Assembly (NCBI GenBank): GCA_030710605.1 | Contig: CP092876.1 | Coordinates: 91,264,890-91,328,889, forward strand | From: Cordylochernes scorpioides | Taxonomy: Eukaryota; Arthropoda; Arachnida; Pseudoscorpiones; Chernetidae | Direction: 5' to 3' | DNA length: 64,000 bases | Shown here: positions 3,197 through 61,059 of the stretch, one piece after another | How positions within the stretch are numbered: position 1 is the first letter of the stretch | Layout of the letters: each line of letters opens with the position of its first letter | Program-made: the position numbers and the translations under genes | Notes under the pieces: generated by a model | The model's database searches: none | Seen by the model: only the letters and a program-made list of their open reading frames with translations | What the model was told of the DNA's origin: nothing

Positions 3197-4008
3197 GTAT
3201 TGGTGACTCTGGTATTTACCATCACTCTCTGCGGCACCATCTCACTCCAGAAGCGCAGAAAAAAGCAATGTGGCCATTATCACGCTGAAGCTGTTTCATT
3301 GATTTGCCCAAATGGCGTCTACGAGCCGACCAAAAGAGCTCAACCCTTGTTTCCAGGTGAGTACACAGAGTCCAGTGCATTTCTCGATGCAAATATTTAT
3401 ATGTAATTTTGTTTCCCTAAAAGCTTATGTCCATAGTTTGCTTGAATACTATTTTTAAGATTCACCCTTCCCTCCATTGTAGCATATATAAAAATGATTC
3501 AATACAGTATTAGAGCGCCGAGATGCGGTCAGGTAGATTAAATTGGCGAAACCGCTGGGAGGATTTATCAATGATGAGCCAGGCACTCCCAATATTTTTT
3601 CAAGGCAGCAAAGATTGTAGAAGTATATTTTATTCGCAAAAAAAAAAAAAACATTCGTTTTTAAATGCTTCCATTTCTAATACAAACGCCTATATTTCTA
3701 TTAATTTATTTCAGCTTGGTGTTCCATATCACTATGGATATAATGTCAATTGAATTTATAAATTCTATATTTATATTAGAATATTTTTCAGCTAGGTGTT
3801 CTATTTCACTATGTATTCTTATTCGATTCTAGATAACCCTGTTGTGCGTGTTCCAGACTCTCTCGGTGCATCAGACCCAGAAATGTTCCTGGACAACAAG
3901 AGAGCAAACAATTTGATGTTGGGGATCAAACGAGGCATTGTTTAAGAATGCTGTCGCGCTCCCTGCAGCTATTACCACATCAGAGTCTACTACTGCAAGC
4001 CTGAATAG
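3197..4008 (+). pseudogene. Insulin-like peptide pseudogene, B-chain exon plus nonsense A-chain exon
   Basis: Exon 2 (3,197-3,356) follows a gatag acceptor and ends at a gtgagt donor. It encodes the end of a signal peptide and a B chain with CGHYHAEAVSLIC, then NGVYEPTKR. Exon 3 (3,833-4,008) follows ctag and keeps the full 176-nt length, the C-peptide, the Lys-Arg site, and A-chain cysteines CCRAPC…YYC. Codon 4 of the A chain is TAA (3,943-3,945) where intact genes have GAA, so translation would stop after Gly-Ile-Val. The short first exon with the start codon (ATGGCTTGTTTC) is absent upstream, and similarity to the intact gene's intron 1 begins only near 3,110. The intron between exons is about 476 bp against about 1.9-2.1 kb in the intact genes. 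It is dead by two criteria, although most of the hormone reading frame is still clean, which suggests recent loss. Confidence 0.88.
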
Positions 4009-11597: not shown

Positions 11598-11609
11598 ACA
11601 GGTATTTTT

Positions 11610-35235: not shown

Positions 35236-35482
35236 ATTGTTACATCATGATTAATGGCGTATTTCTTATATTATTTTTAATATATTTGAAATTTAAATTA
35301 TATATTTATTTATTTTCATATTCTATGATATTTATTTAAAACAGATTATTTAGATTATCATCATTTGTATTTAGGTACACGTGTGACTTCACTGCTCTCT
35401 TTGATGTGAGAAAATAAATAAATGATTCTGGAGGCTACTTAAACTAGACTTATCTCATTATTCCCTTATATAAATTTGTAGG

Positions 35483-36646
35483 ATGGTTGAAACACGCTCT
35501 TGTAAGATGCAAGACCCAGCACAGGAGAGAATCATGCCTGAAGAGTCTGCCAAGCCGCAACCTGGTGCAACAATTGGTAGAGATGCTAGTTCCGACCCAG
35601 TTGTCCTTTATCCCAACATCGACATCCCCAAGTATGATGGAACGGAAGACCCTCACCCATGGATTGAATCTCTTGAAGAAATTGGCTTCCTGTACCATTG
35701 GGCAGACTACATTATTTCTCGTTATGCTGCCATGAATATGATTGGTAGCGCCAAAACCTGGCTGAACCTACACAAGATAAGTTTCACCAGCTGGGAAAAT
35801 TTCAAGAGCCGCCTAATTCAGGATTTTGCCTCAGACGCCAACAAGGAAGAAATGAAGATGAGGCTAAACAGAATGCAGCAGTGGAATGAACCTGCAATCA
35901 GGTTCGCAGAGGATATCCTTGTACTGTGCAACAAGGTCGACCCCCAAATGGAAGAAGAGACTAAATTAAACTGGGTTATTGGAGGGTTAAAGAAAGAATA
36001 CTCTTTTGCCCTTCACCTAAACCTTCCTAAAAATACCAATGAACTTCTAGAAATTTGTAAAAAGCTGGATTTGTTCGAAAAGAATTACCAAGAACGTGCA
36101 GAAAAATCAAAAGCTCTTTATAATGGACCACGCTCTCCTCGTCCCCATCATCAAGAGCAATGGAAGAATGCTATGTCGTTCAGAAAACCATATCAGAACA
36201 CCTCCAAGCCCCAGGCCCCCGCTCCGAGGTACTACCAGAACACCTCCAAGCCCCAGGCCCCCACTCCGAGGTATTACCAGAACAAGCCTCTGCCCCAGGT
36301 ATCTGCCCCTAGACGATCTTACACTCCCAATCCTGAGCAAAAACCGGTCTACACAAGTAAAACATACAATAAGAATCCAAATTCAAATAGGAATAGGAAA
36401 GAAGACGGGAGACCAATATGTTTCAAGTGTAACAAGCCAGGACATGTAGCGCGGTATTGCAGAGTCAGGTTTGTAAGAATTGTGGAAGAGGACCCCATAG
36501 TTACACAAGACAAGGTCGAAGAAGAAATCCGAATGGATAATGTAACTCAGAAGTCGAGACCTCTGCTCTACGCTGACGTAAGTAATAGCCCGTACTCGAG
36601 TATCCCTACAAGGAATAGATATGCCGCATTAGAAGATTTAAACTAA
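35483..36646 (+). CDS. gag: Gypsy 2 gag polyprotein
   Basis: An uninterrupted 387-codon frame starting at ATG 35,483 (MVETRSCKMQ). It forms the retroelement capsid and binds its RNA. The capsid-like domain covers about residues 50-220 (IPKYDGTEDPHPWIESLEE, then TWLNLHKISFTSWENFKSRL). A proline-rich linker at about residues 233-280 contains a near-perfect repeat, QNTSKPQAPAPRYY and QNTSKPQAPTPRYY, with a weaker third copy. The CCHC knuckle CFKCNKPGHVARYC (about residues 313-326) is complete. The homologous gag of gypsy 1 is broken, so this copy shows what that one lost. The next frame, with protease, starts 54 bases later in a different frame. As the rest of the element is gone, expression would have no retrotransposition role. 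Confidence 0.9.
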   Translation: MVETRSCKMQDPAQERIMPEESAKPQPGATIGRDASSDPVVLYPNIDIPKYDGTEDPHPWIESLEEIGFLYHWADYIISRYAAMNMIGSAKTWLNLHKISFTSWENFKSRLIQDFASDANKEEMKMRLNRMQQWNEPAIRFAEDILVLCNKVDPQMEEETKLNWVIGGLKKEYSFALHLNLPKNTNELLEICKKLDLFEKNYQERAEKSKALYNGPRSPRPHHQEQWKNAMSFRKPYQNTSKPQAPAPRYYQNTSKPQAPTPRYYQNKPLPQVSAPRRSYTPNPEQKPVYTSKTYNKNPNSNRNRKEDGRPICFKCNKPGHVARYCRVRFVRIVEEDPIVTQDKVEEEIRMDNVTQKSRPLLYADVSNSPYSSIPTRNRYAALEDLN

Positions 36647-37443: not shown

Positions 37444-38658
37444 TCCCCATGAGATATTATACACTAGTGCCAACGGTTTTTCCAATCTTCGAAGCACTTC
37501 AAAAAATCTTTTTCAGCTCCTCCTTCGATGCCGTCTTTATCTCGTCAAGCGTAGCGTAACGTCGTCCTCTCATGGGCCTCTTCAGTTTAGGGAACAAGAA
37601 AAAGTCACAGGGGGCCAGATCTGGGGTAAACGGTGGCTGCGGCATCATTAGTGTGTTGTTTTTGGCCAAAAAGCCGCGCACAAGCAACGATGTGTGAGCA
37701 GGGGCGTTATCGTGGTGCAAAAGCCAATTTTTGTTCTTCAACAAATCCGGGCGTTTCTGGCGGATTACTTCGCGCAAATTGCGCATAACGTGCAGGTAAT
37801 ATTCCATATTGACCATTCTGCCCTGTGGCAAGAACTCATGATGCACCACGCTCCTGCAATCGAAGAAAACTGTCAGCAAAACTTTCACATTCGACTGAAC
37901 TTGGCGAGCTTTTTTCGGTTTTGTTCGTGCGGCAGCTTCCATTGAGATGATTGAGCTTTGGTTTCCACGTCATAACCATAAACCCACATTTCATCACCAG
38001 TTATGACCCTCTGGAGCAAATTTGGGTCGTCGAGGACAGAGTCCAACATCTCATTAGCAATGTTCATGCGATGCTGTTTTTGGTCGCAATTGAGCAATTT
38101 TGGTACGAATTTCGCGGTGACCCGTCTCATGCCCAAATCATTGATAAAAATCGAATGTCACGAGCCAATCGATATGTTTAGGTCCTCAGCAATTTCTCTA
38201 ACGGTGATTTGACGATTAGCCAATATCATTTTCTCCACTTCATTAATTTTTTCGTCTGTTGTTGTAGTGCTCGGGCGTCCGGCACGCCCTTCGTCGTTTA
38301 CATCTTCTCGGCCTTCTGAGAACATTTTGTACCACCGATAAACGTTGCTTCGGTCGTAGGTAGCTTCTCCGTATGCCACAGTCAACATTCGGAATGCATC
38401 CGCGCACTCAATTTCGTTTTTCAAACAAAATTTTATACAGGTTCTTTGATCCATTTTTTTAATAGGTAAAAATCGAAGACGATCCAAAACCCCTGCAAGC
38501 AAAGCAGCTGTCAAAAATTAAGTGAACATTCAAAATGGACGAGCTTGTCGGCATAAGTGAGAGACATGAGTACCAACATAAAGCCACAAAAAGATCGAAA
38601 TTCGAATATACGTAACCCGCGAAAATTCATAATTAGCGATACATTTTGAACACACCTA
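37444..38658 (-). mobile_element. mariner transposon, 3' end truncated
   Basis: On - the transposase starts at 38,454 (MDQRTCIKFCLKNEIECADA). The N-terminal helix-turn-helix region includes YRWYKMFSEGREDVNDEGRA and GRPSTTTT. A frameshift near 38,160 leads to RRVTAKFVPKLL. Catalytic motifs are TGDEMWVYGYD (first D), LLHHDNAPAHTS (second D) and PDLAPCDFFLFPKLK (third D), consistent with DD34D. It ends RWH-stop-CIISHGD near 37,446 and then runs into gypsy sequence. The right terminal repeat, TAGGTGTGTTCAAAATGTAT, is present (38,638-38,658, - strand) next to TA. The left terminal repeat is missing. Irritans-type by resemblance. Confidence 0.93.
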
Positions 38659-39056
38659 TATAGAGTATATATATTCATATGTAGAATAGATTTGGAGTCA
38701 ATTATGTAAATATCTTCATGTATATACATATTATATCTTCTCTTGATTCATTTATTCGGTAATAGCCTGTTGAAGGACGTCATACAAGTAGTTTGAGGCA
38801 TGGTCAAGATTATACCATATAAGTAAAGAATGTCATTGCCTTTTGATTTTCCTTCTTTTTCGAAATGATAACCGGCAATTCCTCTTCTAGTAAATTCACT
38901 TCTATTGAAGAAATCTAAGAGAAACGGGAATTTTAACAAATATCTATATAATTTAATATCCAAATATTTATCTCCCTCACATGTTTTGACAAGCCTCTAA
39001 GACATTAATCTGATGTACAGCTGTTCTGGTCGTCTGGAATCGATGCAGAGAACGGG

Positions 39057-39094
39057 TATATAAGATGGCGCCGCCTTCTGGCGTGTCAGTAGAC
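39057..39094 (+). promoter_or_regulatory. ILP-A core promoter: TATA box and initiator
   Basis: TATATAAG at 39,057-39,064 and the arthropod initiator TCAGT at 39,086-39,090. The A of the initiator (39,088) is 31 bases after the first T of TATA, the standard distance. The predicted leader before ATG 39,095 is only 7 nt. ILP-B has the same layout. Confidence 0.75.
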
Positions 39095-42000
39095 ATGGCT
39101 TGTTTCAGGGTAAGTCATTTCTCTCCATTGTGTTACATTTTAATTTGTGTTTAAATTTGAAACTACTGTTTATTGTGGTAATTTTTTATTCTCAGTTAAT
39201 AATAATCTCAAAAATGTATATATTCTTATCATTACTATCATTTGCAATTTCTGTTTTAATATTAGTTTGTGGCTTCCACTCAACAACTTAATTATTTTTC
39301 TTTTATCAGAAGGAGGCTATTCACCTTTAAGTTATATTTCTGGCATTGCCTTGTAAGTGGGATAACAGTTCAACTTCTAATCAACATGGGAGCCGAGTGA
39401 ATTCATGTCAGTTCGGAAGATAGTATTTCTTTATTCTTCATTTTTATAGTTTATTGATCTCCCTTGAAATTTATTGTGTTAGTGCTAAAGTAGAATTGTT
39501 CATTGGAGTATATTGGTCATTCTATGTTCATTTTTGTAAGATAATTTGGTTTTTTCCTTCGTATTAGCATGGTATAATTTTATTGTGCAAGCGCTAAAGT
39601 AGTATTGTGTAGCATCTCACGAAGGTGCTAAATATACACATTTGTTTTAAATATCTCAATGTGTAGTTGCTTAGGAATTAATATAAGCCATTGATGGCCT
39701 TGTAAGTGGGATAACAGTTCAACTTCTAATCAACATGGGAGCCGAGTGAATTCATGTCAGTTCGGAAGATAGTATTTCTTTATTCCTCATTTTTATAGTT
39801 TATTGATCTCTCTTGAAATTTATTGTGTTAGTGCTAAAGTAGAATTGTTCATTGGAGTATATTGGTCATTCTATGTTCATTTTTGTAAGATAATTTGTTT
39901 TTTTCTTCGTATTAGCATGGTATAATTTTATTGTGCAAGCGCTAAAGTAGTATTGTTCATTGGAATAGATGGCCGTTCTTTGTTCATTTTGTAATCTAAG
40001 TTGTTTTATTCATTTTATTAGCATGGTAAACTTTATTGTGTAAATGCGAAAGTAGAATTGTTCGTTGGAATAGATTGACCGTTCTTTTTTTTTATAAGAT
40101 GAGTTGTTTCATTCAAGGTAGTAACGTGGTATAAATTTATTGCGTGAGCGATAAAGTAGTATTGTGTTCATTGGAATAGATGGGCCAGACTATGTTATAT
40201 TTGTAAGCTCTATGTTTTATTCATTGTATTAACGTGTACTAGGTTTAATGTGTAAGCGATGAATAGTATTGTGTTCATTTGAATAGAGAGTAGGCAGTTT
40301 ATGTTTATTTTGTAAGCTGTATACTTTCTTACACTACCGTATTGTAGATATATATTGTGAGTACAAACCTAGCATTATGCTTATTGGAATAGTGTCACTT
40401 TTTGTAATCTAAGTAGCTTTATTTATGTCTTTAGCCTGGTAAAGTTTACTTGTGTAAAAGACAAAGTGATATCAATAATTTCAAATTTCAATTTTGTAAG
40501 CTACATTTAAAAATTCATTAAATTATCATGATTTAGGTTTATTTTGTAGAAGCAGAAAATTATTGTTCATTGGAATAGAAAGGTCTATGTTTATCTTGTG
40601 AGCTAGAAAGTTGTTTTTTCATTGATTTATCGCAGTATAGGTTTTTGTGTAAGTGCTGAAAAATACGTACTTGTAGAATTGTTCACTAGAAAAGAGTGTT
40701 CTATGTTTATTTTTAACTACATGTTCATTCATTGTATTAATGTGTAGCTTAGGTTCATTTAATTTAAAACATATAAAGAATCATTTTTTTTATGTTTGTT
40801 CGAATCCCTCCATGATATATGACTGGGACTTCTTCTAATCCCGTAAGAAACCGTTCTGATGTTTTTTATAAAAATTATCCAAAAATGCCTTTATGAGATT
40901 TTAAAAGAGAAAAAAAAACGTTTAGGGTTCTTCATGGTTTGATTGCTTCCAGAATGAGTCTTTGGGTTTCTGGTACTATTTAAGTCTGGATCTTCGTGTG
41001 TTGACAGGTGTTGGTGATTCTGGTATTGACCATCACTCTCTGCGGCGCCATCTCCCTCCAGAAGCGCAAACAGAATCTATGTGGCCATTATCTCGCTGAA
41101 GCTGTTTCAATAGTTTGCCCAAATGGCGTCTACGAGCCGACCAAAAGAGCCCTTTTTCCAGGTCAGTACACCGAGTCCTGGAAGAAATTGACCATTTGGC
41201 TCTGCAACACGGTTTTGTCTTTTAGAGCGAATATTTCTACTTTATATAAGCCACGCTAACGAGGGCCAAACAGCCCAAAATCTATAAAGTTCATGTGACC
41301 CAGGTCAGGATATGCCTTTTTGATATTATATAAATATTTATACTATATTTTAATATATATTTCATGTTGGTGGTATATATACCAAATAAACGTGGCCATG
41401 ATAATCATGGTGTGTAATTAGCGTCTGCTTTTACTGTAAGTACACCCTATGTTCACACTTTTAGAAAGCAATTCGACACCCTGCACTTACGAGTGTTCCA
41501 GAGCCTCGTTTGGTTTATTTATTATCTGACATCTATATAGATAACCAATTCTCTCGCGAATTCTGAGTTCTATGATTCTTTTTGAAATTCTCTGAAATAG
41601 ATATATAATTAATATAAATATAGATCAAAATAATACCAAAGATTACTTGAGTTGAGTTCTTTTCATTCAAATAAGAAATTATATCGTTTGATGTTAAATT
41701 TTATCATCTCTGATTCGATAAAATTTCATAAAAACATACTTGATTTAAATCTCTTGGATATAAATTATAATAATGCAACATCTTTCTGGAAATGAGTTTC
41801 TTTTTGAAAAAATATCAAATGAACTCTACTCTCTCTTTATCTATTTATCCTTATAAATCTTAGTTATTCATATATATACATTTATTTTATATTTAACTTA
41901 ATATAAAACCTTATATTAATAAATATGTAATAAAGTAGTTCCAATATCGCAATCCCTCTCTCTAATACCTAAAAAAATTTGATCTAGCTTTGTACTTTTG

Positions 42001-43270
42001 AGTAGAAGTAGGAAGATATGCCGAAAGCTAATCGCTATTTGAATGAAATTAATAGCGCATTAAATATCTCCTCATTTTTAATTTAATATAAATGCGCTAA
42101 TTTTGAATCTATTCTACATATGAATATATACTCTATATGTGCTTTGAGGATCTGTCTCCATTTCCACCTCCAGAATGAGAATCTATTATGCCCCACCCTC
42201 TTGATTCATCTCCACATAAAGTAAAACGTCCTAATTAAACTTATTGAAATTCTTTTAGCATCGCTAATTCGTTATCAGCTTAGGTATTTACCAAAAGGTA
42301 TTTGTCGAAAATACAAAGTTTTGATATAAAGCTACATCAACCACTTATTTATATTTTGTTCCCGACGTTTCAGTGACTCGCTGTTACTCTCCTCTAGGAA
42401 TTTATTCCATTGTAAAAGAAACATTCATTCTTTAATACCTCAATTTTTTATAAATAGATGACCCGTTATTGGCTCATAATTAAATTTGCCTAACTGGCCT
42501 CGTCCCTATTGTTTGCGGAAGATCATTGCTCAATGCAAATATTTATATATAATTCTACTGCGCTAAAAGCTTATGTCCATTGTTTTCTTGAATCCCATTC
42601 TAGGATTCCACCCTGCAGTATAGAATATATAAGCAGAATTATCCAATACAGTTTTAGAGCTCTAGGGAGCGGTCTAGTTGATAAAATTGGCGTAACTATT
42701 GTAAGGGTTCACCAATATTTTCTCGTCAACCGAAGATAGTAAAAGTTTGAATTATGTGTAAAAGAGACATTCATGCTTCAAATCTGCCTTTTTTATACAA
42801 CATTCTATATTTATTTTTATTACAAATATATTTACTGCCAATAGGTTACTTTTAAATAACATTAAATATAATATTTTTTTACAGACCTGTCTATAGATAT
42901 AATATTTGATATTTTTTAAAAGAAAGGTCTGTAGATGAAATATTTGATGATATTTAAAATAAACATTTTTCTAGTAAATTTATTTGTACAAAATATTAAT
43001 GATTGATGGCAATTAAATTTATAAATTCGATATCCATATTAAATAATAACCAGCTTGGTGTTCCATTTCACTATGTATTCTTATTCGATTATAGATAACC
43101 CTGTTGTGCGTGTTCAAGACTCTCTCGCCGCATCAGAACCAGAAATGTTCCTGGACAACAAGAGAGCAAACAATATGATGTCGGCGATCAAACGAGGCAT
43201 TGTTGAAGAATGCTGTAAAACTCCCTGCAGCTATAACCACATCAGAGTCTACTACTGCGCGCCTGAATAG
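39095..43270 (+). CDS. Insulin-like peptide A (three exons, intact)
   Basis: Predicted secreted hormone precursor of the insulin family, expected to act on a receptor tyrosine kinase after cleavage. Exon 1 is 39,095-39,109 (MACFR, then gtaagt); exon 2 is 41,008-41,161 (acceptor gacag, donor gtcagt, phase 1); exon 3 is 43,095-43,270 (acceptor tatag). Together 345 nt, 114 residues. Residues 6-20 (VLVILVLTITLCGAI) form the signal-peptide core. The B chain has Cys30 and Cys42 in CGHYLAEAVSIVC, the family spacing. Lys-Arg at 51-52 and 89-90 bounds the C peptide, which holds a further Lys-Arg at 79-80. The A chain GIVEECCKTPC…YYC has Cys96, 97, 101 and 111. The last interval is nine residues, not eight. 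A polyadenylation signal AATAAA lies at 43,320. The upstream in-frame ATG at 39,065 precedes the likely transcription start, so it was not used. Confidence 0.93.
39350..40760 (+). repeat. ILP-A intron 1: 347-bp tandem duplication and about 110-bp diverged repeats
   Basis: 'ccttgtaagtgggataacag' and the following sequence at 39,352 recur at 39,699. Further on, a unit of about 105-130 bp with 'cattggaatagat', 'ttgtaagct' and 'gcgctaaagtagtattg' repeats with heavy divergence to about 40,740. The ILP-B intron (51,870-52,740) holds the unit repeats but only one copy of the 347-bp segment. Confidence 0.75.
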
Positions 43271-43319
43271 AGCTGAATTAAACAATATCTTCTTGGCTCA
43301 CTATATTTATTGCCTTCTT

Positions 43320-43325
43320 AATAAA
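43320..43325 (+). terminator. ILP-A polyadenylation signal
   Basis: AATAAA 50 bases after the stop codon. The mirror-image signal for ILP-B is at 49,169-49,174. Confidence 0.6.
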
Positions 43326-43699
43326 CTCTTCCAAGTAAATTATATTAGTTGTTTTTTTTTTAAGCCAAATCTCTCCAAAATTATAAAGACAGGCCTCTAC
43401 ACTTCATTGAAATAGTAATTTCTCCAAGTGTAAAAACAGCTAAATTGGATCAGTACAAAAGTGCGGAATTGTTATATAATCAGGCGGTTAAAAAAATAAT
43501 AATACAGATCGAGCAACTGATATTGCTGATAGGTTACGCCATCTATTGGAATAAATATAAACTAATCGTTCATATTTATAGCCGCATCAACCAATTATTT
43601 ATTTATTTACTGACGTTTCAGAGTTTCACTGCCTCTCTCCTCAGGGGATTATATTTTTTCCAGACCAACTTCCAACCAACAAATTATCTTCAAAAACTC

Positions 43700-44008
43700 A
43701 TTTTTCATTAATTAAGAATATCAGCGAAATATTTACCGTGTTTTCTTTCATTGAATTTTTATATCCAACAAGGTACGCTCTAGGTGTAGTTGGGCCTAAT
43801 CAGCGTGGAATAATCTGTACTTTACCATCAGAACCAACAAATAATGTTAATGATTTATATATAGTATATGAATTGGTTTGAATATCTCCTGGACAAAAAT
43901 AGACAATGCTATAGATTTCTGTAAATAAGTTTATTTTTATTTTATTATCGTAGTCTCCAACTTTCAACCATATCTGCCATTCTAGTATAGGATTAATTAG
44001 AAGGGTCA
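43700..44008. other. ILP-A 3' flank, no gene
   Basis: Continues the ILP downstream repeat ('gggcctaatcagcgtgg' at 43,790). The mirror is at about 48,515-48,780. Confidence 0.5.
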
Positions 44009-44408
44009 CTCCAAAGGTTTTTGCAATCAATATTAAATTATTGAAATATTAAAAATGATTCGAACCATTAAAACCTTCATTAAAATAGCCTGACATAATT
44101 TTTTTCCATAAAATAGTAACAACAATGTGTCATAAAGGGCGCGACTTTGTTGACAGCGCATCTGTAATTCCTAAACATTGCATCGTGCCTAATGGAGTTG
44201 ACTAGAGAAAGTTTATGCCCATTATCTTCTATGAAATTAAAAGTAATTTAATTTCTAAAAAGCTCCTATGAAAATTCGATGAGTGCCTTAGTAGATAAAG
44301 CTCCTTCTATTAGAACAGTTTTTAATTGGTTCAATGAATATTTTTCAATTTGAAAAAAACAACTTCGAAGATGAACCTTGTTCAGGTCGGTCACCAACAG
44401 CAGAGACC
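44009..44408 (+). mobile_element. mariner-2 relic, front third
   Basis: Starts at the terminal repeat GGGTCACTCCAAAGGTTTTT. It carries the N-terminal transposase remnant: NWFNEYF near 44,320-44,345, then a GRS/GRP-type block near 44,380. Everything from the middle to the other terminus is deleted; compare the longer copies at 47,241-48,512 and 59,318-60,580. Confidence 0.75.
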
Positions 44409-44929
44409 CAAGTGTCTTAGAAAGGTGAATTATCTCGGGGTTCTATAAATCAGAAGTTGAATCGATTCCTGTCACGTCTGGAGTGTATTCTTGTGTGGTA
44501 AATTTTTTAAACATGTACTGAGGAGTATATTTACACGGTGAGGAGTCGATTCTATTGGATAAAAATATGATGAGGTATGAAATGAAAAGGCAATAAAAAA
44601 TGTAGATGTAAGTAAAGGGGAAATGAGAAAACAGAATTAAAATTACATAAATACTATATTAAAGGATAGATGAGAAATAAGAATGTATATCTTGTATCTA
44701 CCATCTGGTGTTAATTTTTCTCTATTTTAAGAAATATTTGAGCTTGTGTTTGAATGTTGGTTGAGTTTTCTTTTACAGAATAATCTTAATTTAATAGATT
44801 CATAATTTTAAAAAATAATAAATCAATTTTAATGAGAAAATTGCACTATTTATAACGCCTGTATAATTCTTTTAAAAATAAATCGATTTAATAACCAATA
44901 ATGTTCCACATATTAATATAGCCATACGT

Positions 44930-45100
44930 GATGCCCATTAGGTGATCCTGAATCCAGCAATAAATTCTGTTGACACAAAACTAACACTACCTAAAGGCGC
45001 AGTATCTGGTGAAGACATTTTATTCGATCCAATATTTATCAACAGATATATATCAAGGCATTAAATTGTGTAAAATAGAATCTGTTTATATTTTACGTCT
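44930..45100 (+). other. Unrecognised coding-like repeat U, copy 1 (partial)
   Basis: Contains 'ctgttgacacaaaactaac' and 'ggtgaagacattttattcga', in common with 46,370-46,720 (inverted), 56,990-57,130 and 58,440-58,800 (inverted). See the entry at 58,459. Confidence 0.5.
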
Positions 45101-45389
45101 TGTTCTATTGGCGAAATATTATTCCATGTTTTCTCTTGCAGAAGGGCTTCTGTGCCCGAAAGCTAGAGAAAATATGTTTTAGAAAAGATATTTTTTTCTG
45201 GAGGCCTGATATATTTTACTCAGTTTGAACTTTTATTGTTTAAGTTCGTAAAGATATTCAATGCTAAGTTTATAATATAGCCATTTTATACAACATTAAG
45301 GTGCCGGGAAAGAACGTTGATGTACCAAATGAGTCATCTCTTTCTTTAATTATACATTAGAATTATGCAATATGTTAATCTCACTAGTT

Positions 45390-46010
45390 ATAAACCTACT
45401 AGTGATGATAAATAATGAGCCACACAACACCAGTTTGGTATTTTTCAGATAAAAAGCTATCCTTCATTACATGGTTTCAGGCTATGGTTCTCATCAGTAC
45501 AGGGACGGCTCCGATTTGATGCGCGAAGGGTTATGAAATCCATTGAATTTTACAAACAGAGTTTTGAGCTGGTAAAGTGGCAATGGCCAAGTTTAAGGCA
45601 ATAATACAAGGTGAAATTATGAGAAGATGATATTAATGTATTTTTATTTATGCACATATAAAGGGAGAGGTGCCTCTTCAGGTAAATGAATATCATCCTC
45701 CCGCAACTTTAATTTGAAGTCTAGCCTGAAAATCGACCTTTGCCCTCTATCAGCTTGAACACCTGTTTGGTAAAATTGACCAATTTTTTAATCCTATCGT
45801 AGGATGTTATGAAATAGAAGCGGGCCTTATACTGATGAGGGCTAAGGCCGGAAACCATAGTATTCAGGTTGTTTGCTTTTTGTTTGAACTTGCCAAACCT
45901 GGTGACATATTCTTTATTATCGTTAGTAAAGGTTTTTAATAGGGAGACGAACAAGGCATTGTTCTGATGCATGATTGAAGATAGAGATGCCTTTATGTTC
46001 TCAAAAGTAT
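45390..46010. repeat. Centre of the spacer: foldback-like repeat block
   Basis: 45,415-45,520 ('cacaacaccagtttgg', 'catggtttcaggctatggtt', 'catcagtacaggg') and, on -, 45,830-45,985 share motifs with each other and with the foldback element at 34,683-35,235. The block recurs inverted at 57,540-58,140. The 84-codon - ORF at 45,721-45,972 is not conserved as a frame at 57,540-57,800 in any way I can verify. Confidence 0.5.
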
Positions 46011-46369
46011 TGAAATGGGTACAATTCTAATAAATATTCCTTTTTATTTGGTTCACTCTTCACCATTCTACAATATTTTCTGTTACCACCCTCAATGATT
46101 GAAAATTAGTGCACAAGAGCAGAGAATATCTTAAATATATCTAATTACTAATTCATTCCAAATTTCGATTCTCCGCAGTTCCATACTGAGATACTCAATT
46201 CGACTTTTGTTCCAGAACGATGAACAATATGATTTTTTAATGAATCCCATTTGTTGAAACTTCGTTAGTATGCTCCACAACCACCTTTGGCTCGACCTAA
46301 AAAGTTCATGGCAGCTTATCTAGAGATGATATAGTCTTCTGGTTTGTAAATCAATTCTATTTAAACTCG

Positions 46370-46720
46370 GGATTCAATCTATTCAAGATGATCTTTATTC
46401 CCACCATTCTTTTGGATGTAGCTTCAATTCTATTAATAAAAATTGGATCAAATACAACGTCTTCACGATATACTGCGCCTTTATGTAGCTCTAGTTTTGT
46501 GTCAACATAATCCATTGCTGCGCTGTTACTAAGACCAGAACTGATGATTGTAAATATTTTCTATTCATTTTTTCACGGTAACTTTTCACAACCTTTAACT
46601 TTTTGATCTTGAGACACATTATGCTGTGTGTGTGCTGTGCTGTATGTGAGAGAACAAATATTCACAGTAATAGTCATGCCACTGGATTCAGGATCACCTG
46701 ATGGCCATCACATAATACTA
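46370..46720 (-). other. Unrecognised coding-like repeat U, copy 2
   Basis: Read on - with frame changes it gives NSAAMDYVDTKLELHKGA, DVVFDPIFINRIEATSKRM and VGIKIILNRLNPEFK. Same family as 58,459-58,701, extending further at the C-terminal side. Confidence 0.5.
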
Positions 46721-47240
46721 TATTAATATGATGAACATTTGTGATTATTAAATTGATTTATTTTAAAAAGGTATACGGGCGGTATATATTGTGCAATCTT
46801 TATCAAAATAAATTATTTAATTATTTTTTTAATTATGAAACTAATAAATTGAAATTATTCTGTGAAAGAATATTCAACCAACATTCAAACACGAACTCAA
46901 ATAATTCTTAATATACAGAAAATATCACCTGCAGATGATACATACCAGAAATACATTCTCATTTCTAATCTATCGTTTGATGTAGTATTTATGTAATTTT
47001 ACTTATGTTCACTCTTTTACCATTTACTTACATCTAAATTTTTTATTGCCTTTTAATTTCATACCTCATCAAATTTTTATCTATTAGAGTCGTCTCCCCA
47101 CCGTGCAAATACTTTTCAGTACATGTTCAAAAAATTAACCAAATAAGAATACGTCGCAGACGTGACAGGAATTGAATCAACTTCTGATTTAGAGAACTCT
47201 GAGATAATTCACCTTTCTAAGTACCTAATTATTGTATCTC

Positions 47241-48512
47241 CAAGTGTCACTCCATAGGTTTTGCATTCACTCATTTTTATTAAAGCTGCAACTTTCAAAT
47301 TTCATGTTTCTCAAATTATTCATCCTTAGCACCTATGCAATATTTCATCCAAGAACACCAATTACCGAAGCACTACCATTTATCATTTTCAAAGATTGGA
47401 TTTATGGCATTGATAAAGGCTATAGTGCTTCATAATCAGTGTCTAATTTTATCCCTTTTAACATTACAATAAATTACAGATATAAAAAGGTCACAAGGTT
47501 CTAGTTCTGGTGAATATGGCTTAAGAGTCTAATGTTTGGGATGAGGTGTGCTATCTTGCATTGTCATGGTAAACAAGGACTCCTCTAAGTTGAGCTCTTG
47601 ACCTTCTTTGCTAGATTTTTTAATACTAGTGGAAGGCCTTTTGTTGTATATCAGTCATTTTCAACACTTTTTCGATCTTCTAACTTCACAATATCAATAA
47701 ACCACTTTTCTCAATGAACAAGCGACCGTTTGTTTTCAAACATAGTGAGCTCTGCGAAGTATCTTGGGAATAGGTGATTTTGAAAGGCGCAAGAGAGTAG
47801 ATTTTTTTTTCTGAATCAAAATCGTGAATCCAAGTTTCCTCACCTGTAATATAATTGAAAACAGCCTATGATTTGATTTAAACAATTTTTTCATAAAGAA
47901 ATTACCCCATTCAATGCAACCAAGTTTTTATGTTAGTCAAACTGCGAGGTGCCCATTTACTAGCAAGTTTTCTGTATATTAATTGATCACTATTGATGGT
48001 TATTGCTGCCGATCTAACATACAAACATTTATCTAATTGCTGATATGTAATTCTTCAATCTTCTCTAAGTAAAAAATCTAACCAGCTCAATTTTTTTCTT
48101 GGGTGACTGTTGTTGTTGGCCGACCTAAACAAGGTTCATCTTCAAAGTTGTTTTTTTTTTCAAATTGAAAAATATTCATTAAACCAATTAAAAACTGTTC
48201 CAATAGAAGGAGCTTTATCTCCTAAATCACCCATTTATCTTTTATTGGATCGTTAGAAGTTATATTTCTCATATTTTCATGAAAGATCATGGGGCATAAA
48301 TTATTTCTAGTCAACTCCATTGGGTTTGATGCAATATTTAGGAATTACAGCTGCGCTGTCAACAGAGTTGCGCCCTTTATGATACCTAGTTGTTACTATT
48401 TTATGGACAAAATTATGCTAGGTTAAAATTTCATGTAGGTTTTAATGGTATAATTCATTTTTTAATATTTTAATAATTTAATATTGATTGCAAAAACTTT
48501 TGGAGTGACCCT
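47241..48512 (-). mobile_element. mariner-2 relic, near full length (about 1.27 kb)
   Basis: Terminal repeats: GTCACTCCATAGGTTTTGC at the low end and the complement of GGGTCACTCCAAAAGTTTTT at the high end. On - the degraded transposase reads NWFNEYFQFEKK, DEPCLGRPTTTVTQE, LASKWAPRSL, TGEETWIHDFDSE and, near the end, YSPELEPCDLF. Many stops and frameshifts. Length and motifs fit a mariner-family element distinct from the one at 37.4-38.7 kb. Confidence 0.82.
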
Positions 48513-49221
48513 TGTAATTAATCCTATACTAGAATGGCAGAGATGGTCGAAAGTTTGACTAAAAAAATAAATTTACTTACAGAAATCTGGGGTTTTGTTT
48601 ATTTGTGTTCAGGAGATTTTTAAACCAATTCCTATACTATATATCAATCAATAACATTATTTGTTGGTTCTGATGTTGAAGTACAGATTATTCCACGCTG
48701 ACGAGGGCCAACAACACGTAGAGCGTACCTTGTTGGAATTCCAAATAATCATTGAAAGAAAGCACGGTAAATATTTCGCCGATATTCTCGATTAATGAAA
48801 AATGAAAGTTTTGAAGAAAATTTGTTGGTTGGAAGTTGGTTTGGAAAAAATATAATCCCCTGAGGAGAGAGGCAGTGAGACATTGAAACGTCGGAAAAAA
48901 AATAATAATTGGTTGATATGGCTATGAATATGAACGATTAGTTTATATTTTTTCCAATAGATAGTGTAACCTATCAACAATATTAGTTTCCCAATCTGTA
49001 TTTTTTTTTAACCGCCTGATCAGATAACAATTTTATACATTTGTATATTTAGCTGTTTTTATACTTTGAGAAATTACTGTTTCAATAAAGTGTAGAGGCC
49101 TTTTTTTATAAGTTTTGGAGAGATATGGCTTCAAAAAAAAAACAACTAATATAATTTACTTGGAAGAGTTTATTAAGAAGGCAATAAATAGTGAGCCAAG
49201 AAGATATTGTTTGATACAGCC

Positions 49222-52200
49222 CTATTCAGGCTTGCAGTAGTAGACTCTGATGTGGTTATAGCTGCAGGGAGAGCGACAGCATTCTTCAACAATGCCTCGT
49301 TTGATCGTCGACATCACATTGTTCGCTCTCTTGTTGTCCAGGAACATTTCTGGTTCTGATGCGGCGAAAGAGTCTGGAACACGCACAACAGGGTTATCTA
49401 GAATCGAATTAGAATACATAGTTAAATGCATAACCTCGCTGAAAATATTCTAATATAAATATAGAATTTATAAATTTAATTTCCTTTTATCGTTAAATTT
49501 CTCCACAAATAAATTTACTCTCAATGTGGTTATATTAAATATCATCAAATATAATATCTACAGACCTTTCTTTTATATATTATATCTATAGACAGGTCTG
49601 TCAGTATAATATTTAATGCTATTTCAAAGAAACCTATTGGCAGTAAATATATTTTTACCAAAAATAAATATAGCATGTTTTATAAGAATAGAAGGATATA
49701 TAGCATATATGAAGGTTTCTTTTACCCAAAATTCAAACTTTTACTATCTTTGCTGTGATGAGAAAATATTGGTGAACTCTTACAATATTTACGCCAATTT
49801 TATCAACTAGACCGCTCCTTAGAGCTCTAATACTGTATTGGATCATTCTGTTTATATATTCTATTATGCAGGGTGGAATCTAATAATCGGATTCTAGTAA
49901 ATAATAGACATAAGTTTTAGGGCAGTAGAATTATTTATAATTTCTTCCACAAACAATAGGTACGAGGCCAGTTAGGCAAAATTAATAATAACCCGTTACG
50001 GGTCATCTATTTACAAAAGAATTGACGTATTAAAGAATGAATGTTTCTGTTACAATGGAATAAATTCCTAGGGGAGAGTAACAGCGAGTCACTGAAACGT
50101 CGGGAACAAAATATAAATAAGTGGTTGATGTAGCTTTATATCAAAACTTTGTATTTTCGACAAAACCTTTTTGGTAAATACTTCAGCTGATAACGAATTA
50201 GCGATGCTAAAATAAACTCAATAAGTTTAATTAGGACGTTTTACTCTTTGTGGAGATAAATCAATTCAATCTCATTCCGGAGGTGGAAATGGAGACAGAA
50301 CCCCAACGCACATATAGAGTATATATTCATATGTAGAATAGATTCAAAATTAACGCATTTATATTAAATTAAAAATATGGAGATATTTAATGAGCTATTA
50401 ATTTCATTCAAATAGCGATTAGCATTTAGCATACATTCCTATTTCTACCCAAAAGTACAAAGTTATTGATTAGTTAAAGCCTTTCAGATTTATTTAGGTA
50501 TTAGAGAGAGGGATTGCGATATTGGAACTACTTTATTGCATTTTTATTAATATAAGGTTTTATATGAGGTTAAATATAAAATAAATTTATAAATATATTT
50601 GAATAAATGAGATTCATAAGGATAAATAGATAAAGAGAGAGTAGAGTTCATTTGATATTTTTGTTAAAAGAAACTCATTTCCAGAAAGCTGTTGCATTAT
50701 TATAATTTATATCCAGGAGATTCAAATCAAGTATGTTGTTATGAAATTTATCAAGTCAGAGATGATAATATTTAACGTCAAACGATATCATTTCTTATTT
50801 GAATTAAAAGAAACTCAACTCCATTAATATTTTGGTATTATTTTAATTTTTATTTAAATTAATTATAGATATCTATTTAAATTAAATATATATTCCAGAG
50901 AATTTAAAAAATAATCATAGAGCTCAGAATTCTCGAAATAATTGGTAATCTATATAGATGTCAGATAATAAATAAACCAAAGGAGGCTCTGGAACACTCG
51001 TAAGTGCGGAAGTCGAATTGCTTTCTAAAAGTGTGGACATATGGTGTACTTACAGTAAAGGCAGACGCTAACTACACACCATGATTATCATGACCACGTT
51101 TACTTGGTATATATACCACCACCATGAAATATAAATTAAAATATAGTATAAATATTTATATAATATCAAAAGGGCATATCCTGAGCTGGGTCACATGAAC
51201 TTATAGATTTTAGAGCGCCATCTAGTGGATCAGATATCAATTAAAAATTAAATCAAACGCTTAAATTAAAAATTAAACGCTCATTTAGCAGGTTCCCTGA
51301 AATTTTGTTAACCTATTTTCTTGATAATTCAAAATAAGCCAACCACGAATCAGTTTTGGGCTGTTCGGCCCTCGTTAACGTGGCTTATATAAAGTAGAAT
51401 TTTCGCTCTAAAAGACAAAACCTTGTTGCAGAGCCAAATGGTCAATTTCTTTCAGGACTCGGTGTACTGACCTGGAAAAAGGGCTCTTTTGGTCGGCTCG
51501 TAGACGCCATTTGGGCAAACTATTGAAACAGCTTCAGCGAGATAATGGCCACATAGATTCTGTCTGCGCTTCTGGAGGGAGATGGCGCCGCAGAGAGTGA
51601 TGGTAAATACCAGAATCACCAACACCTGTCAACACACGAAGATCCAGACATCAATAGTAATAGACACCCAAAGACTCATTCTTGAAGAAAAAAAACCATG
51701 AAGAACCCTAAACGCTTTTTTATCTTTTAAAATCTCATATAGGCATTTTTGGATAATTTTTATAAAAACATCTGAACGGTTTCTTTTGGGATTAGGAGAA
51801 TCCCTAGTCATATATCATGGAGGGATTCATACGAATATTTTAAAAAAAGATGAATTTTTATATATTTTAAATTTGATTAAACTATACCACACGTAAATAC
51901 AACGAATAAACTTTTTAGTTGAAAAAAAATAACATAGAACTTTCTTTTCTATTAAATAATTCTACAAGCACTTATTTTTTAGCGCTTACACAATAAACAT
52001 ATACTTCGATAATTTAATGAATGAAACAACTTTTTAGCTTACAAGATAAACATAGACCACTCTATTCCAATGAACAATAATTTTCTGCCTTTGTACAATA
52101 AATTACATGACGATAATTGAATGAATTTTACAACTTATCTTACAAATTTAGCATTTAAAATTAATAATATCACTTTGGCTTTAACACATGTAAACTATAC

Positions 52201-53080
52201 CAGGCTAATAACATGATAAAAGCTACTTAGCTTATAAAAGAAACTTTGACACTATTCAAATAAACATAATTCTACTTTAGCACTCACACTATAAATCTAC
52301 AACACGTTAAATGGAATGAATAAAATAAGTTACAAGATAAACATAGACTGCTACTCTCTTCCAATGAACTCAATACTACTTTATCGCTTACACAGTAAAC
52401 CTAGAACACGCTTATATAAATAAATAACTCAACTTAGGTTACAAAATGAAAAAGGAATGGCCAATCTATTCCAATGAAAAATTCTACTTTCGCACTTACA
52501 CAATAAAATAATACCATGCTAATACAATGAATAAAACAAATTATTATACAAAAATAAACATAGAACGGCCAATATACTCCAATGAACAATTCTACTTTAG
52601 CAATAACACAATAAATTTCAAGAGTAATCAATCAACTATGAAAATGAAGAACAAATAATTTCTATCTTTCACACTGACCTGTATTCACCCGGCTACCACA
52701 TTGATTAGAAGTTGCACTCTTATTCCACTTACAAGGCCATTAATGGCTCAAATAAATTCCTAAACAACTACGCATTGAGATATTCAGAACAAATTTGTAT
52801 ATTTAGCACCTCCATGAGATGTCACACATCTATGGCAATGCCAGAAATATAACTTGAAGATGTATAGCCACCTTCTGTTGAAAGAATTGACTTGATTGCA
52901 ATTCACGAACTAACATTAAACCAGAAATTACAAATAATCATAATGATAAGAATATATGAAAGTTTTGAAACTATATTCAACAGAGAATAAAAAACTACCA
53001 CAATAAACAAAATTTCCAATTTGAAAATAATTGAACATATAACTTGATAAAGAGAAGTGACTTACCCTGAAACAAGCCAT
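49222..53080 (-). CDS. Insulin-like peptide B (three exons, intact)
   Basis: Mirror-image paralogue of ILP-A, again 114 codons. Exon 1 is 53,066-53,080 (MACFR), exon 2 is 51,472-51,625 and exon 3 is 49,222-49,397; all splice sites follow the gt-ag rule with the same phases. The mature B chain is identical to ILP-A. The A chain reads GIVEECCRSPC…YYCKPE, with the same nine-residue last interval. Compared with ILP-A there are nine amino-acid changes (12 L/F, 26 K/R, 64 Q/P, 67 L/F, 84 M/V, 87 A/T, 98 K/R, 99 T/S, 112 A/K) and one silent change. Introns are 1,440 and 2,074 bp. Processing sites, including the extra Lys-Arg in the C peptide, are kept. No defect is visible. Confidence 0.93.
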
Positions 53081-53118
53081 GTCTAATGACACTCCAGAAG
53101 GCTGGGCCATCTTATATA
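53081..53118 (-). promoter_or_regulatory. ILP-B core promoter: TATA box and initiator
   Basis: On -: TATATAAG at 53,118-53,111 and initiator TCATT with its A at 53,087, again 31 bases apart and 7 nt from ATG 53,080. Retention of this geometry in both arms supports function. Confidence 0.75.
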
Positions 53119-53480
53119 CCAGTTCTTGGCATCGATTCCAGACGACCAGAACAGCTGCACATCAGATTAATGTCTTATAAGTTTGTCAAAACATGTGAGA
53201 AAGATGAGGCTTTGGAAAATAAATTATAAAGATATTATAACTGTTAGAATCCTCGTTCTTTTTGATTTCTACAATAGAAGTGAATTTACTAGAGAAAAAT
53301 TGCCAGATATCATTTCAAAAAAGGAGTTAAACCTAATGGCGACGACATTTTTTATTTATTTGGTATAATTTTGGCACGCTCTCAGGCTACTTGTATGAAG
53401 TCCATTAACAGGCTATTACCCGAACACAAGAATTAAGAGAATAATAATATTCATATACATGAAGATATTCATATAATTGA

Positions 53481-55689: not shown

Positions 55690-56565
55690 AAACCAACTTT
55701 GAAGATGAAAGTTGTTTAGGTCGGCCACCAACATCAGTGACCCAAGAAAAAATTGAACTGGTTAGATTTTTTGCTTATAGAAGATTGAAGAATTACGTAT
55801 CAGCAATTAGATAAAGTTTGGACATTGGAACGGCAGCAAACACCATTCTAGTGAATGGGCACCTCACAGTTTGACTAACATAAAAAAACTTGGTTGCATT
55901 GAATGGTAAATTCCATTATGAAAAAAATTGTTTAAATAAAATCAAAGGCTAAAATCAAAGAAACTCGGATTCACAATTTTGATAAAGAAACAAAATCCAC
56001 TCTCTGGTGCGTTTCAAAATCACTTCCTCCCAAGATATTTCGCAAAGCTCACTATGTTCTAAAACAAACGGTCGCTTGTTTATTTAGAAAAGTGGTTTCA
56101 TTGATATTGTGAAGTTAGAAGATCGAAAAAGAGTTAATAATGACTGATATACAACAAAATGACTTCCACCATTATTTAAAAAATATATAGCAAAAAAGGC
56201 CAAGAGCTCAATTTAGAGGAGTCCTTCTTTACCATGAAAATGCAAGATTGTACACCTCTTCCCAAACATTAGACTCTAAGAACATTTTCACCAGAATTAG
56301 AACCTTTTGATTTTTTTATTACTGAGAGTTATTGTATTTTTGAAAGGGGTACAATTTGACACTGATGATGAAGCACTGCAGCCTTTATCAATGCCATAAA
56401 TTCAATCCCCGAAGATGACAAGTGTAAGTGCTTCATTAATTGGTTCCCACGGATGGAATATTGCATAGGTGCTAAGGGTGAATATTTTAAGAAAAACTGA
56501 AATTAAAATTTTCAGCTTTGATGAATATAAGTGATTGCAAAACCTTTGGTCTGACATTTGGATAT
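55690..56565 (+). mobile_element. mariner-2 relic, 5' truncated
   Basis: Begins inside the transposase at a GRP-type block ('gatgaaagttgtttaggtcgg') and runs through 'accatgaaaatgcaagattg' (the HDNAR region) to a degraded terminal repeat near 56,540-56,565. Stops throughout. Confidence 0.75.
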
Positions 56566-56989
56566 ACAATAATTAGGTGTCTAGGAAAGGTGAATTATCT
56601 CGGAGTTCTCTCAATCAGAAGTTGACACGTTTTCTGTCACGTCTGCGATGTATTCCAATGTGGTTAATTTTTTTAACATGTGCTGAGGAGTATTTGCACG
56701 GTGAGGAGACACTCTAATAGATAAAATCATGATGAGGTATGAAATAAAAAGGCAATGAAAATGTAGAGGTAAGTAAGGGGGAAATGAGAAAACATTAGTA
56801 AAATTATATAAATACTACAATAAACGATAGATAAGAAATAAGAATGTATATCTGGTATGTACCATCTGGTGGTAATTTTTTCTTTATTTTAAAAATTTTG
56901 AGCTTGTGTTTGAATGTTGGTTGAGTTTTATTTCACAGAATATTCTTAATTTAATAGATTCATAATTAAAAATATCAGAAACTATTTTA

Positions 56990-57130
56990 TGATCATCTGT
57001 TCTGGTCTTATTAACAGCGCAGCGAGGATTCTGTTGACACAAAACCAGCACTACATAAAGGCACAGTATCTGGTGAATACATTGTATTCAATCCAATTTT
57101 TATTTTTGGAATTGAAACTACATCCACAAG
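56990..57130 (+). other. Unrecognised repeat U, copy 3 (partial)
   Basis: Contains 'ctgttgacacaaaaccagca' and 'gtatctggtgaatacattgt'; then NPIFIFGIETTSTRMVGMNI in one frame, which is the C-terminal side of copy 2. Confidence 0.5.
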
Positions 57131-58458
57131 AATGGTGGGAATGAATATCCCCGCGAATAGATTGAATCCCGAGATTAAATAGAATTGATTTACAAATCAG
57201 AAGACAATATCATCGCCAGATAAGCTGCCATGAACTTTTTAGGTCGAGCCAAAAGTTGTTGTGGAGCATACTTACGAAGTTTCAACGAATGGGATTCATT
57301 AAAAAATCATATTATCCATCGCTCTAAAACAGAAGTCAAATTGAGTATCTCAGTATTAAACTTGGGAGAATCGAAATTTGCAATGAACCAGTAATTAGAT
57401 ATGTTTAAGATATTCTCTGCTCTTGTGCAATAATTTTCAATCATTGAGGGAGGTAACAGAAAATATTGTAGAATGGTGAATAGTGAACCAAAAAAAAAAA
57501 GGAATATTTATTAGAATTGTACCGATTTCAATAATTTTGAGAACATGAAGACATCTCTATCTTCCATCATGCATCAAAACATTGCCTTGTTCATCTCCCT
57601 AGTAAAAATCCTTACTAATGATAATAAATAATATGTCACCAGTTTTGGCAAGTTCAGACAAAAAGCAAAGAACCTGAATACTATGGTTTTCGGCCTTAGC
57701 CCTCATCAGTATAGGGCCCTCTTCGATTTCATAACATCCTACGAGAGGATTATAAAATTGGTAATTTTTCCAAACAGGTGTTTAAGTTTATGAAGTAGGA
57801 AAGATCGTTTTTCAGGTTATAATTCAAATTAAAGTTGCGGGAGGATGATATTCATTTACCTGAAGAGGCACCTCTCCCTTTATATGTGCATAAATATAGA
57901 TACATTAATATCATCTACTCGTAATTTCACGTTGTATTATTGCCTTAAACTTGGTCATTGCCACTTCACCAGCTCAAAACTCTGGTAAATTCAATGGATT
58001 TCATAACCCTTCGCGCATCATATCGAAGCCGTCCCTGTACTGATGAGAGCCATAGCCTGAAACCATGTAATGAAGGATAGCTTTTTATCTGAAAAATACC
58101 AAACTGGTGTTGTGTGGCTCATTATTTATCATGACTAGTAGGTTTATAACTAGTGTGATGAATATGTTGCATAATTCTGATGCATAATTAAAGTAAGAGA
58201 TCACTCATTTGGTACATGAACGCTTTCTCCTGGCAACTTAATGTTGTATGAAATGGCTATATTATAAACTTAGCATTGAATATCTTTATGAACTTAAACA
58301 ATAAAAGTTCAAACTGAGTAAAATATATTAAACCTCCAGAGAAAAATATATTTTCGAAAACATGTTTTCTCTAGCTTTCGGCCACGAATGCCCTTCTGCA
58401 AGAGAAAACATGGAATAATATTTCGCCAATAGAACAAGAGTTAAAATATAAACAGATC

Positions 58459-58701
58459 CTATTTTACACAATTTAATGCCTTGATATAAATAAACTCCAT
58501 ATTTGATATATATCTGTTGAAAAATATTGGATCGAATACAATGTCTTCACCAGATACTGCGCCTTTATGTAGCGCTAGTTTTGTGTCAACAGAATACATT
58601 GCCGCACTATTAATAGGACCAGAACATATGATCATATAATATTTTCTATTCATTTTTTCATGGTAACTTTTCACAACCTTCAACTTTTTAATCTCGAACA
58701 C
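58459..58701 (-). CDS. Unrecognised ORF, best copy of repeat U
   Basis: An 80-codon frame on -, MFEIKKLKVVKSYHEKMNRK at its start and VDTKLALHKGAVSGEDIVFD in the middle. I do not recognise the family. The segment occurs four times, always at matching places in the spacer and its inverted duplicate. The stretch from VDTKL to VFDPIF is kept in at least two copies with conservative changes (LALHKGA/LELHKGA; EDIVFDPIF/EDVVFDPIF), which suggests a real coding origin. After FDPIF the copies diverge: this one continues NRYISN, copies 2 and 3 continue to RMVG. It could be an exon of a host gene or a transposon protein carried along by the duplication. No start context or splice sites could be established. 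Confidence 0.3.
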   Translation of the reverse strand: MFEIKKLKVVKSYHEKMNRKYYMIICSGPINSAAMYSVDTKLALHKGAVSGEDIVFDPIFFNRYISNMEFIYIKALNCVK

Positions 58702-59317
58702 ACTATGCTGTTTTCGTGCTGTGCTGTATGTGAGAGAACAAATATTTAAAATAGTAGTCCCGCTACTGGATTCAGGATCACCTAATGGGCATCACATATT
58801 ACTATATTAATATGTGGAACATTATTGATTATTAAATCGATTCATTTTTAAAATAATTATACAGGCGTTATAGATAGTGCTAATTTACTTTTAAAATTAA
58901 TTTATTAATTTTAAAAATTATGAATCTATTAAATTAAGAATATTCTGTAAAAGGACACTCAACCAACATTCAAACAAAAGCTCAAAAATTTCTTAAAATA
59001 GAGAAAATATTACCACCAGATGGTAGTTACAAGATATACATTCTTATTTCTCAACTATCCTTTAATATAGTATTTATGTAATTTTACTTGTTTTCTCATT
59101 TCCCCTTTACTTACACTACATTTTTATTACCTTTTCATTTCATACCTCATCATATTTTTATCCATTAGACTCCCCACCGTGCAAATACTCCTCAGTATAG
59201 GTTTAAAAAATTGGCCACACAAGAATACGTTCCAGACGTGACAGGAATCGAGTCAACTTCTGATTTAGAGAAATCCGAGAAAATTCACCTTCCCTATACA
59301 CCTAATTATTGTATCTC

Positions 59318-60580: not shown

Positions 60581-60590
60581 GTTATTAATC

Positions 60591-61059
60591 CTATACTACA
60601 ATTTTATTTATTTATTTATTCATTACAAAACACACGCTATATCCTATGTAAATATTTGCATGTAAATGTTTAAACTATTTTATGTACATAGTTTTAAATA
60701 TATATATACAAATTATTTATATTTTTAGAGAGAGAGTAAAGTTATTCAAATTATAAAACTATTTTAAAGGCGTAATATTCTTTTTAAAATAAAACGATTT
60801 CTACTGTCCTTACTGCGATGGAAAAATTAAAGGGAGGGCCTGGCTCATCAGTGGTGAACCCTCCCAGCGGTTTCGCCAGTTTAATCTACCATACCGCTGT
60901 TATATTGCATTTTTGGAACTTCCTTTTATAGGTGACTGTTGTAAGACTCTTGGAATGGGTATTTTAGAAGAACTATAGACATAAGCTTTTAGGACAGCAG
61001 AATTAAATATAATTATAAATATATAATATGCTTCGAGCAATCGTAGTAAAGTTATTCAA
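60591..61059 (-). repeat. Orphan ILP intron-2 fragment, inverted
   Basis: 60,833-61,020 matches 1,365-1,530 and, inverted, 3,400-3,590 ('cctggctcatcagtgg', 'cagcggtttcgcc', 'acataagctttt'). 60,601-60,830 is AT-rich with an (ATTT)n tract and nothing else. Confidence 0.7.

Follow-up and report, generated by a model that had tools for sequence, protein, structure and literature searches.

A chromosome-end array of insulin-like genes in the pseudoscorpion Cordylochernes scorpioides: probable amplification of one secreted hormone

Two insulin-like genes, A and B, which an earlier note had taken for a lone pair in a 64,000-nucleotide (nt) window of the genome of the chernetid pseudoscorpion Cordylochernes scorpioides, are two of about 100 paralogous units in an array at a chromosome end. 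The window, by which we mean the whole stretch of DNA that was analysed, is C14:91,264,890-91,328,889; contig C14 (CP092876.1 of assembly GCA_030710605.1) is 91,489,810 nt long, in a genome of 2.62 Gb on 24 contigs. The sequences of the genes make it probable that the array arose from a duplicated insulin gene and that, under purifying selection, it amplifies the dose of one secreted hormone. Insulin is a known kind of molecule, and what is striking here is the scale of the family, an extra residue in its A chain and its near-uniform product.

The reading of A and B as a pair of intact three-exon insulin-like genes stands, with every coordinate given for A (+) and B (-) correct, whereas their supposed isolation does not, given the array and two more decayed copies within the window. 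The introns are all GT-AG, the exons measure 15, 154 and 176 nt in both genes, and the joined frame of 345 nt is open in both. As had been claimed, these exons escape naive ORF (open reading frame) finding: no ORF of at least 120 residues covers them. The features of the two genes, with divergences and conservation among the 11 intact copies described below, are as follows.

39057..39064, + strand: TATATAAG box of gene A, 38 nt before the ATG
39086-39090, + strand: initiator-like TCAGT of gene A, with the ATG 7 nt after its A
39095..39109, + strand: exon 1 of gene A (MACFR); ATG and GTAAGT donor in 11 of 11 intact copies
41008..41161, + strand: exon 2 of gene A, with the putative signal peptide core, LQKR, B chain and KR; mean pairwise divergence 2.1%
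43095..43270, + strand: exon 3 of gene A, with the putative C-peptide, KR, A chain and stop; mean pairwise divergence 3.9%
43320..43325, + strand: AATAAA poly(A) signal of gene A
53118-53111, - strand: TATATAAG box of gene B
53080-53066 (53066..53080), - strand: exon 1 of gene B
51625-51472 (51472..51625), - strand: exon 2 of gene B
49397-49222 (49222..49397), - strand: exon 3 of gene B

A putative signal peptide, dibasic sites and a C-peptide between the B and A chains can all be read from the translated products, which are of 114 residues and differ between A and B at nine of them. In a Pfam scan, made with product A only, this product matches PF00049 (Insulin) with 48.1 bits (E 2.3e-12; gathering cut-off 23), and among solved structures it also matches human insulin (E 1.6e-5). 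Mismatches between A and B are concentrated in the introns (435 of 3303 aligned bases, against 13 of 345 exon bases; Fisher p 2e-8).

Genome-wide searches with the exon peptides of gene A give the scale of the family. The exon-3 peptide has 144 matching stretches at E <= 0.01 (150 of 152 candidates scored), which lie on C14 (126), C8 (nine), C5 (three) and C12, C10 and C3 (two each); the exon-2 peptide has 126 (131 of 131 candidates scored), on C14 (115), C8 (nine) and C12 (two). All of the C14 matches fall between 87.18 and 91.49 Mb. When same-strand exon-2 and exon-3 matches within 8 kb are counted as one gene-like unit, the genome holds 121 units; 110 lie within the final 4.3 Mb of C14 (87.18-91.49 Mb), and 23 exon-3 and five exon-2 stretches are left unpaired. 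The matched stretches are free of stops in 118 of the 121 units, and the main type accounts for 91 of these 118. If look-alike units are collapsed by exon gap (that is, by intron-2 length) and by identities, 85 (strict) or 56 (loose) units are left. A PF00049 profile search of the whole genome finds four places only, because the exons are split.

Stray copies on C10 and C12 are decayed. At one of these loci (L001 1440-2120, at C12:33.64 Mb) intron 2 is missing, the end of intron 1 is present and an insertion breaks the copy; a second pair of exon matches like it lies 21 kb away. We did not use L001 as a spliced retrocopy: the end of intron 1 is kept and the first 24 nt of exon 3 are skipped, and the locus is equally explicable by a deletion between two TTCCAG repeats, so that it is no proof of splicing.

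In the protein database, product A matches only three unnamed C. scorpioides models. The deposited models that overlap the array are unnamed hypothetical proteins, and part of one of them (P0001) reads exactly in copy J. The joined exon-2/exon-3 peptide of a gene at the proximal edge of the array gave 11 candidates in the same database, none at E <= 0.01; thus, the searches yielded no relative from other arachnids, and the A-chain spacing described below cannot be placed outside the C. scorpioides genome. No paper title in the literature searches concerned an insulin-like array of a pseudoscorpion.

Exon searches from the start of the window to the end of C14 (the window plus the remaining 161 kb, together the last 225 kb) define 17 insulin-like loci, of which 11 (A, B, E, F, G, H, M, N, O, R and S) are intact three-exon genes. 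Copies C, D, J and Q are broken, copy I has exons 2 and 3 but an exon 1 was not found, and K consists of exon 3 only; among the paired units of this region, 11 of 15 are intact. Neighbouring genes alternate in strand, with five tail-to-tail, five head-to-head and one tandem interval (D, C, I, J and K left out). No TTAGG repeat was seen up to the end of C14, so the array may continue beyond it.

Comparison of the 11 intact copies shows where these genes are constrained. Mean pairwise divergence is 3.6% in exon 1, 2.1% in exon 2 and 3.9% in exon 3, against 11-15% in three segments of intron 1 and 9.4% and 13.4% in two segments of intron 2. It is 8.1% in the 60 nt before the ATG, 29% farther upstream and 9-12% after the stop. 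Outside exons 2 and 3, none of 4144 sliding windows of 154 nt or 3990 of 176 nt reaches the conservation of either exon. Averaged over the 55 pairs, nonsynonymous divergence (dN) is 0.023 and synonymous divergence (dS) 0.062, beside 0.094 for intron 2 and 0.122 for intron 1; by segment, mean dN/dS is 0.018/0.019 in the signal region, 0.012/0.094 in the B chain, 0.039/0.101 in the C-peptide and 0.021/0.034 in the A chain.

The outcome is a nearly uniform peptide. The 11 genes encode 10 precursors and four distinct mature B/A pairs, with an identical pair in seven of the 11, and variable residues number four of 48 in the mature chains against 11 of 36 in the C-peptide (Fisher p 0.011), if, as we assume, the mature chains span residues 27-50 and 91-114. 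With a mature hormone so nearly identical in the intact copies examined, dose is the simplest function. Many genes, each with its own TATA promoter, would yield one secreted product and so raise its dose; secretion, dibasic cleavage, disulfide-linked chains and a tyrosine-kinase receptor would be as elsewhere in the insulin family. What the sequences show is the structure of the genes, the range of their number, their conservation and the near-identity of the mature peptides in 11 copies; transcription, processing, receptor, dosage and place of use we infer.

The usual signature of an insulin A chain is CC-x3-C-x8-C. In all 11 intact copies the B chain has C-x11-C and the A chain reads CC-x3-C-x9-C, one residue more than usual. 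The x9 spacing also occurs in 16 of 20 further members, picked for divergence and including two on C5, while three of the 20 have lost a cysteine of the pair. Both genes at the proximal edge of the array (87.18-87.21 Mb on C14) have x8, and the first of the two has an exon 2 plainly related to that of the array (CGSHLSETIALVCNHRYYEPSKRAFPS against CGHYLAEAVSIVCPNGVYEPTKRALFP). This suggests that the A-chain insertion took place after the edge genes had split off, and it is through the PF00049 profile and this homology to the x8 edge genes that we assign the array to the insulin/IGF/relaxin superfamily despite its deviant spacing. Arthropod relaxins (dilp7-like) carry a receptor-binding motif with two arginines in the B chain; the B chain here, QNLCGHYLAEAVS(I/L)VCPNGVYEPT, has no arginine. 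The long C-terminal extension by which arthropod IGF (aIGF) is defined (PMC7357564) is absent from the array genes, in whose intact copies three residues and then the stop follow the sixth and last cysteine. As a separate observation, a C-peptide core around FLDxKRANN (in gene A, within 43095-43200) is recognizable across 11 subfamily representatives while A-chain residues change; rapid divergence of C-peptides is described as usual in an account of bombyxins (PMC3745042).

Short sequences around the genes are kept as well. Each of the 11 intact copies has an ATG with the GTAAGT donor of exon 1, TATATAAG 38 nt upstream of the ATG, a TCA[GT]T whose A precedes the ATG by 7 nt, and an AATAAA no more than 50 nt past the stop. 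In A and B, TATATAAG, TCA[GT]T and ATG lie within 39057-39097 and, in mirror image, 53118-53078. We take TATATAAG to be a TATA box and TCA[GT]T to be initiator-like, and the two together form a putative promoter. If this initiator is used, the leader would be of 7 nt.

Trees indicate how the array may have grown. Upstream sequence and intron 1 divide the intact copies into two classes, A, E, G, M, R and S against B, F, H, N and O, with a support of 1.00; intron 2 gives the same split (0.99), the 3' flank supports it weakly and the coding tree is without resolution. The two promoter and intron-1 classes appear to show that duplication continued after an old split. In copy Q a promoter of the first class is combined with an exon 3 like those of the second. 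More recent duplications are E/S (99.5% identical over 10.1 kb, inverted) and G/R (about 99%). Repeated segmental duplication of a three-exon gene, mostly inverted, would have produced the array at the chromosome end, and its ancestor would have been a conventional insulin gene that survives at the array's proximal edge. The receptors offer a comparison: with insulin and EGF receptors taken together, receptor L domains give 11 matching stretches at about four places only (C2, C19 and twice on C9), so that at this resolution the receptors were not co-amplified.

It is doubtful, although several facts speak for it, that the array is mostly an effect of the assembly, in which a modest family of perhaps a few tens of genes has been inflated where haplotypes stayed unmerged or blocks were misplaced. 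The same run of copies recurs in three blocks of about 110-130 kb, at C8:87.98-88.09, C14:90.37-90.51 and C14:91.37-91.49 Mb, and such look-alike blocks may be either recent segmental duplications or unmerged haplotypes. Between R and its C8 counterpart identity is 100% over 3174 nt, with 99.6% for M and 96.7% for O, and the near-identical pair E/S includes, in S, a copy at the extreme end of C14, where no TTAGG was seen. However, collapsing leaves dozens of units even in its loose form (56, or 85 if strict), and the 225 kb is continuous, with distances between its intact copies mostly of 6-12% in intron 2 and up to 18% in intron 1. Only E/S and G/R lie below 1%, and the other distances would be far above any plausible allelic difference. 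Another reading, of a young amplicon with only a few expressed master copies and the remainder drifting as relics, would fit the broken or incomplete state of six of the 17 loci in the last 225 kb and the decay of the strays on C10 and C12. It is nonetheless improbable, as exon divergence among the 11 copies is several-fold under intron divergence and the conserved windows are exons 2 and 3 only.

We also regard it as very unlikely that the amplified peptide is a prey-directed product of the venom gland of this venomous arachnid, like the insulins of cone snails. Amplified arrays and divergent subfamilies do occur among venom families, and A-chain residues differ between the subfamilies here. 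Venom peptides usually diversify, however, which is the opposite of what the 11 intact copies show, where the mature chains are conserved and the C-peptide is variable. Insulin has been recruited into venoms elsewhere (PMC6372279, PMC10972341, PMC10819828), but a venom-gland transcriptome paper on a pseudoscorpion from a different family has the word insulin just once, where it refers to a binding protein (PMC5983263).

Amplification of one hormone for dosage, which we hold to be probable, has several points against it. Conservation extends into intron 2, whose first 100 nt diverge by 4.6%, so gene conversion may contribute to the homogeneity of the exons. In the A chain dN is little below dS, in the signal region the two are about equal, and for the pair A/B alone dN (0.045) exceeds dS (0.020). 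The last of these values had suggested positive selection, which we dropped once all 55 pairs were compared. Gene A is the most deviant of the 11 intact copies. A leader of 7 nt would be unusually short. A chains are divergent in the other subfamilies, so one hormone is not made by the whole array. The exact match of R to C8, and several further blocks at 96.7-99.6%, bear on the total, some of which may come from unmerged haplotypes. Finally, the array is known here from its genes only. The main doubt about number is haplotype duplication, and the main doubt about function is whether the genes are transcribed.

Among known systems, the bombyxin clusters of Bombyx mori resemble the array as a large clustered insulin-like family with pairs and triplets, pseudogenes and the preproinsulin layout (PMC3745042). 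As described there, the silkmoth has 37 bombyxin genes by chromosome tally, mostly intronless and with low C-peptide similarity; in contrast, the array comprises 121 exon pairs (56-85 when collapsed), keeps its introns, has a recognizable C-peptide core and carries the extra A-chain residue. Tick insulin-like genes (IsILP1, 3-5) have two to four exons and spiders show local aIGF duplications, but the accounts on which we draw describe a handful of genes and no array of this size (PMC6536706, PMC7357564). Putative pseudoscorpion sequences had been taken from databases as queries in the tick work, so pseudoscorpion insulin-like peptides as such are not new. C. scorpioides also has a single-exon insulin, which shares B and A chains, dibasic sites and the PF00049 match with the array but differs from it in its x8 spacing, in having both chains in one frame and in its two loci only, C14:8794186-8794470 (+) and 8880890-8881174 (-), near 8.79 and 8.88 Mb. 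These two loci are 98% identical, in opposite orientation and about 86 kb apart.

In the window, genes A and B are carried on the two arms of a 14.8-kb inverted duplication; its centre is unmatched, and its arms diverge by 17.0% in intron 1 and 10.3% in intron 2, against 1.3% in exon 2 and 6.3% in exon 3. A second palindrome (55690-60602) is related to the centre and inner arms of the first (43979-48535) with 82-91% identity and is without exons of the insulin-like gene. The window also contains the decayed copies C and D, absent from the earlier note. As to the earlier view that A and B are the only convincing host protein genes of the window, Pfam finds mobile-element domains in eight of the nine long window ORFs scanned and no match in one (9979-10854, -); retrotransposon remnants (with reverse transcriptase, integrase and gag domains) and a partial transposase are among the matched ORFs. 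A predicted tRNA-Gly(gcc) at 23174-23244 (-) adjoins a tandem repeat (23483-24313; unit about 31-33 bp) with three open frames.

38698..45046, + strand: left arm of the inverted duplication, bearing gene A; 78-95% complementary blocks against 53480-46429
46429..53480, - strand: right arm, bearing gene B; complementary blocks against the left arm
3197..3356, + strand: exon 2 of decayed copy C (AQPLFP subtype)
3833..4008, + strand: exon 3 of decayed copy C, with an in-frame TAA
1027..1198, - strand: exon 3 remnant of decayed copy D (exon 3 only), with a frameshift and a stop
7538-8170, 10929-12335, 14834-15751, 30633-31361, 35474-36643, 37499-37966 (-) and 61882-62646 (-): mobile-element ORFs (Pfam)

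To our knowledge, animals usually increase the output of a hormone by regulation and not by dozens of gene copies, the best-known exception being the bombyxin clusters of the silkmoth; the array described here, in a live-bearing arachnid, is much larger. As a first guess, the amplified hormone may be used in the reproduction and growth of a mother that feeds her embryos. Chernetid mothers are described as nourishing their embryos from a hypertrophic, polyploid ovary and oviduct (PMC9018881), and the words insulin and hormon are absent from the main text of that paper. The hormone might be made in, or act on, this secretory ovary and oviduct, or might reach the embryos in the nutritive fluid. 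That the array, as one of the largest insulin-like families known in animals, supplies hormone dose for mother-embryo exchange in a matrotrophic arachnid is a tentative and rather unlikely proposal; if it were true, a conflict over maternal provisioning, or else selection acting on variable male growth, might account for the high copy number and its instability. The array illustrates how annotation can overlook a large insulin-like family. Furthermore, it raises testable questions about whether insulin dose follows copy number, with effects on body size and male growth, and about whether the hormone is used in the feeding of embryos.

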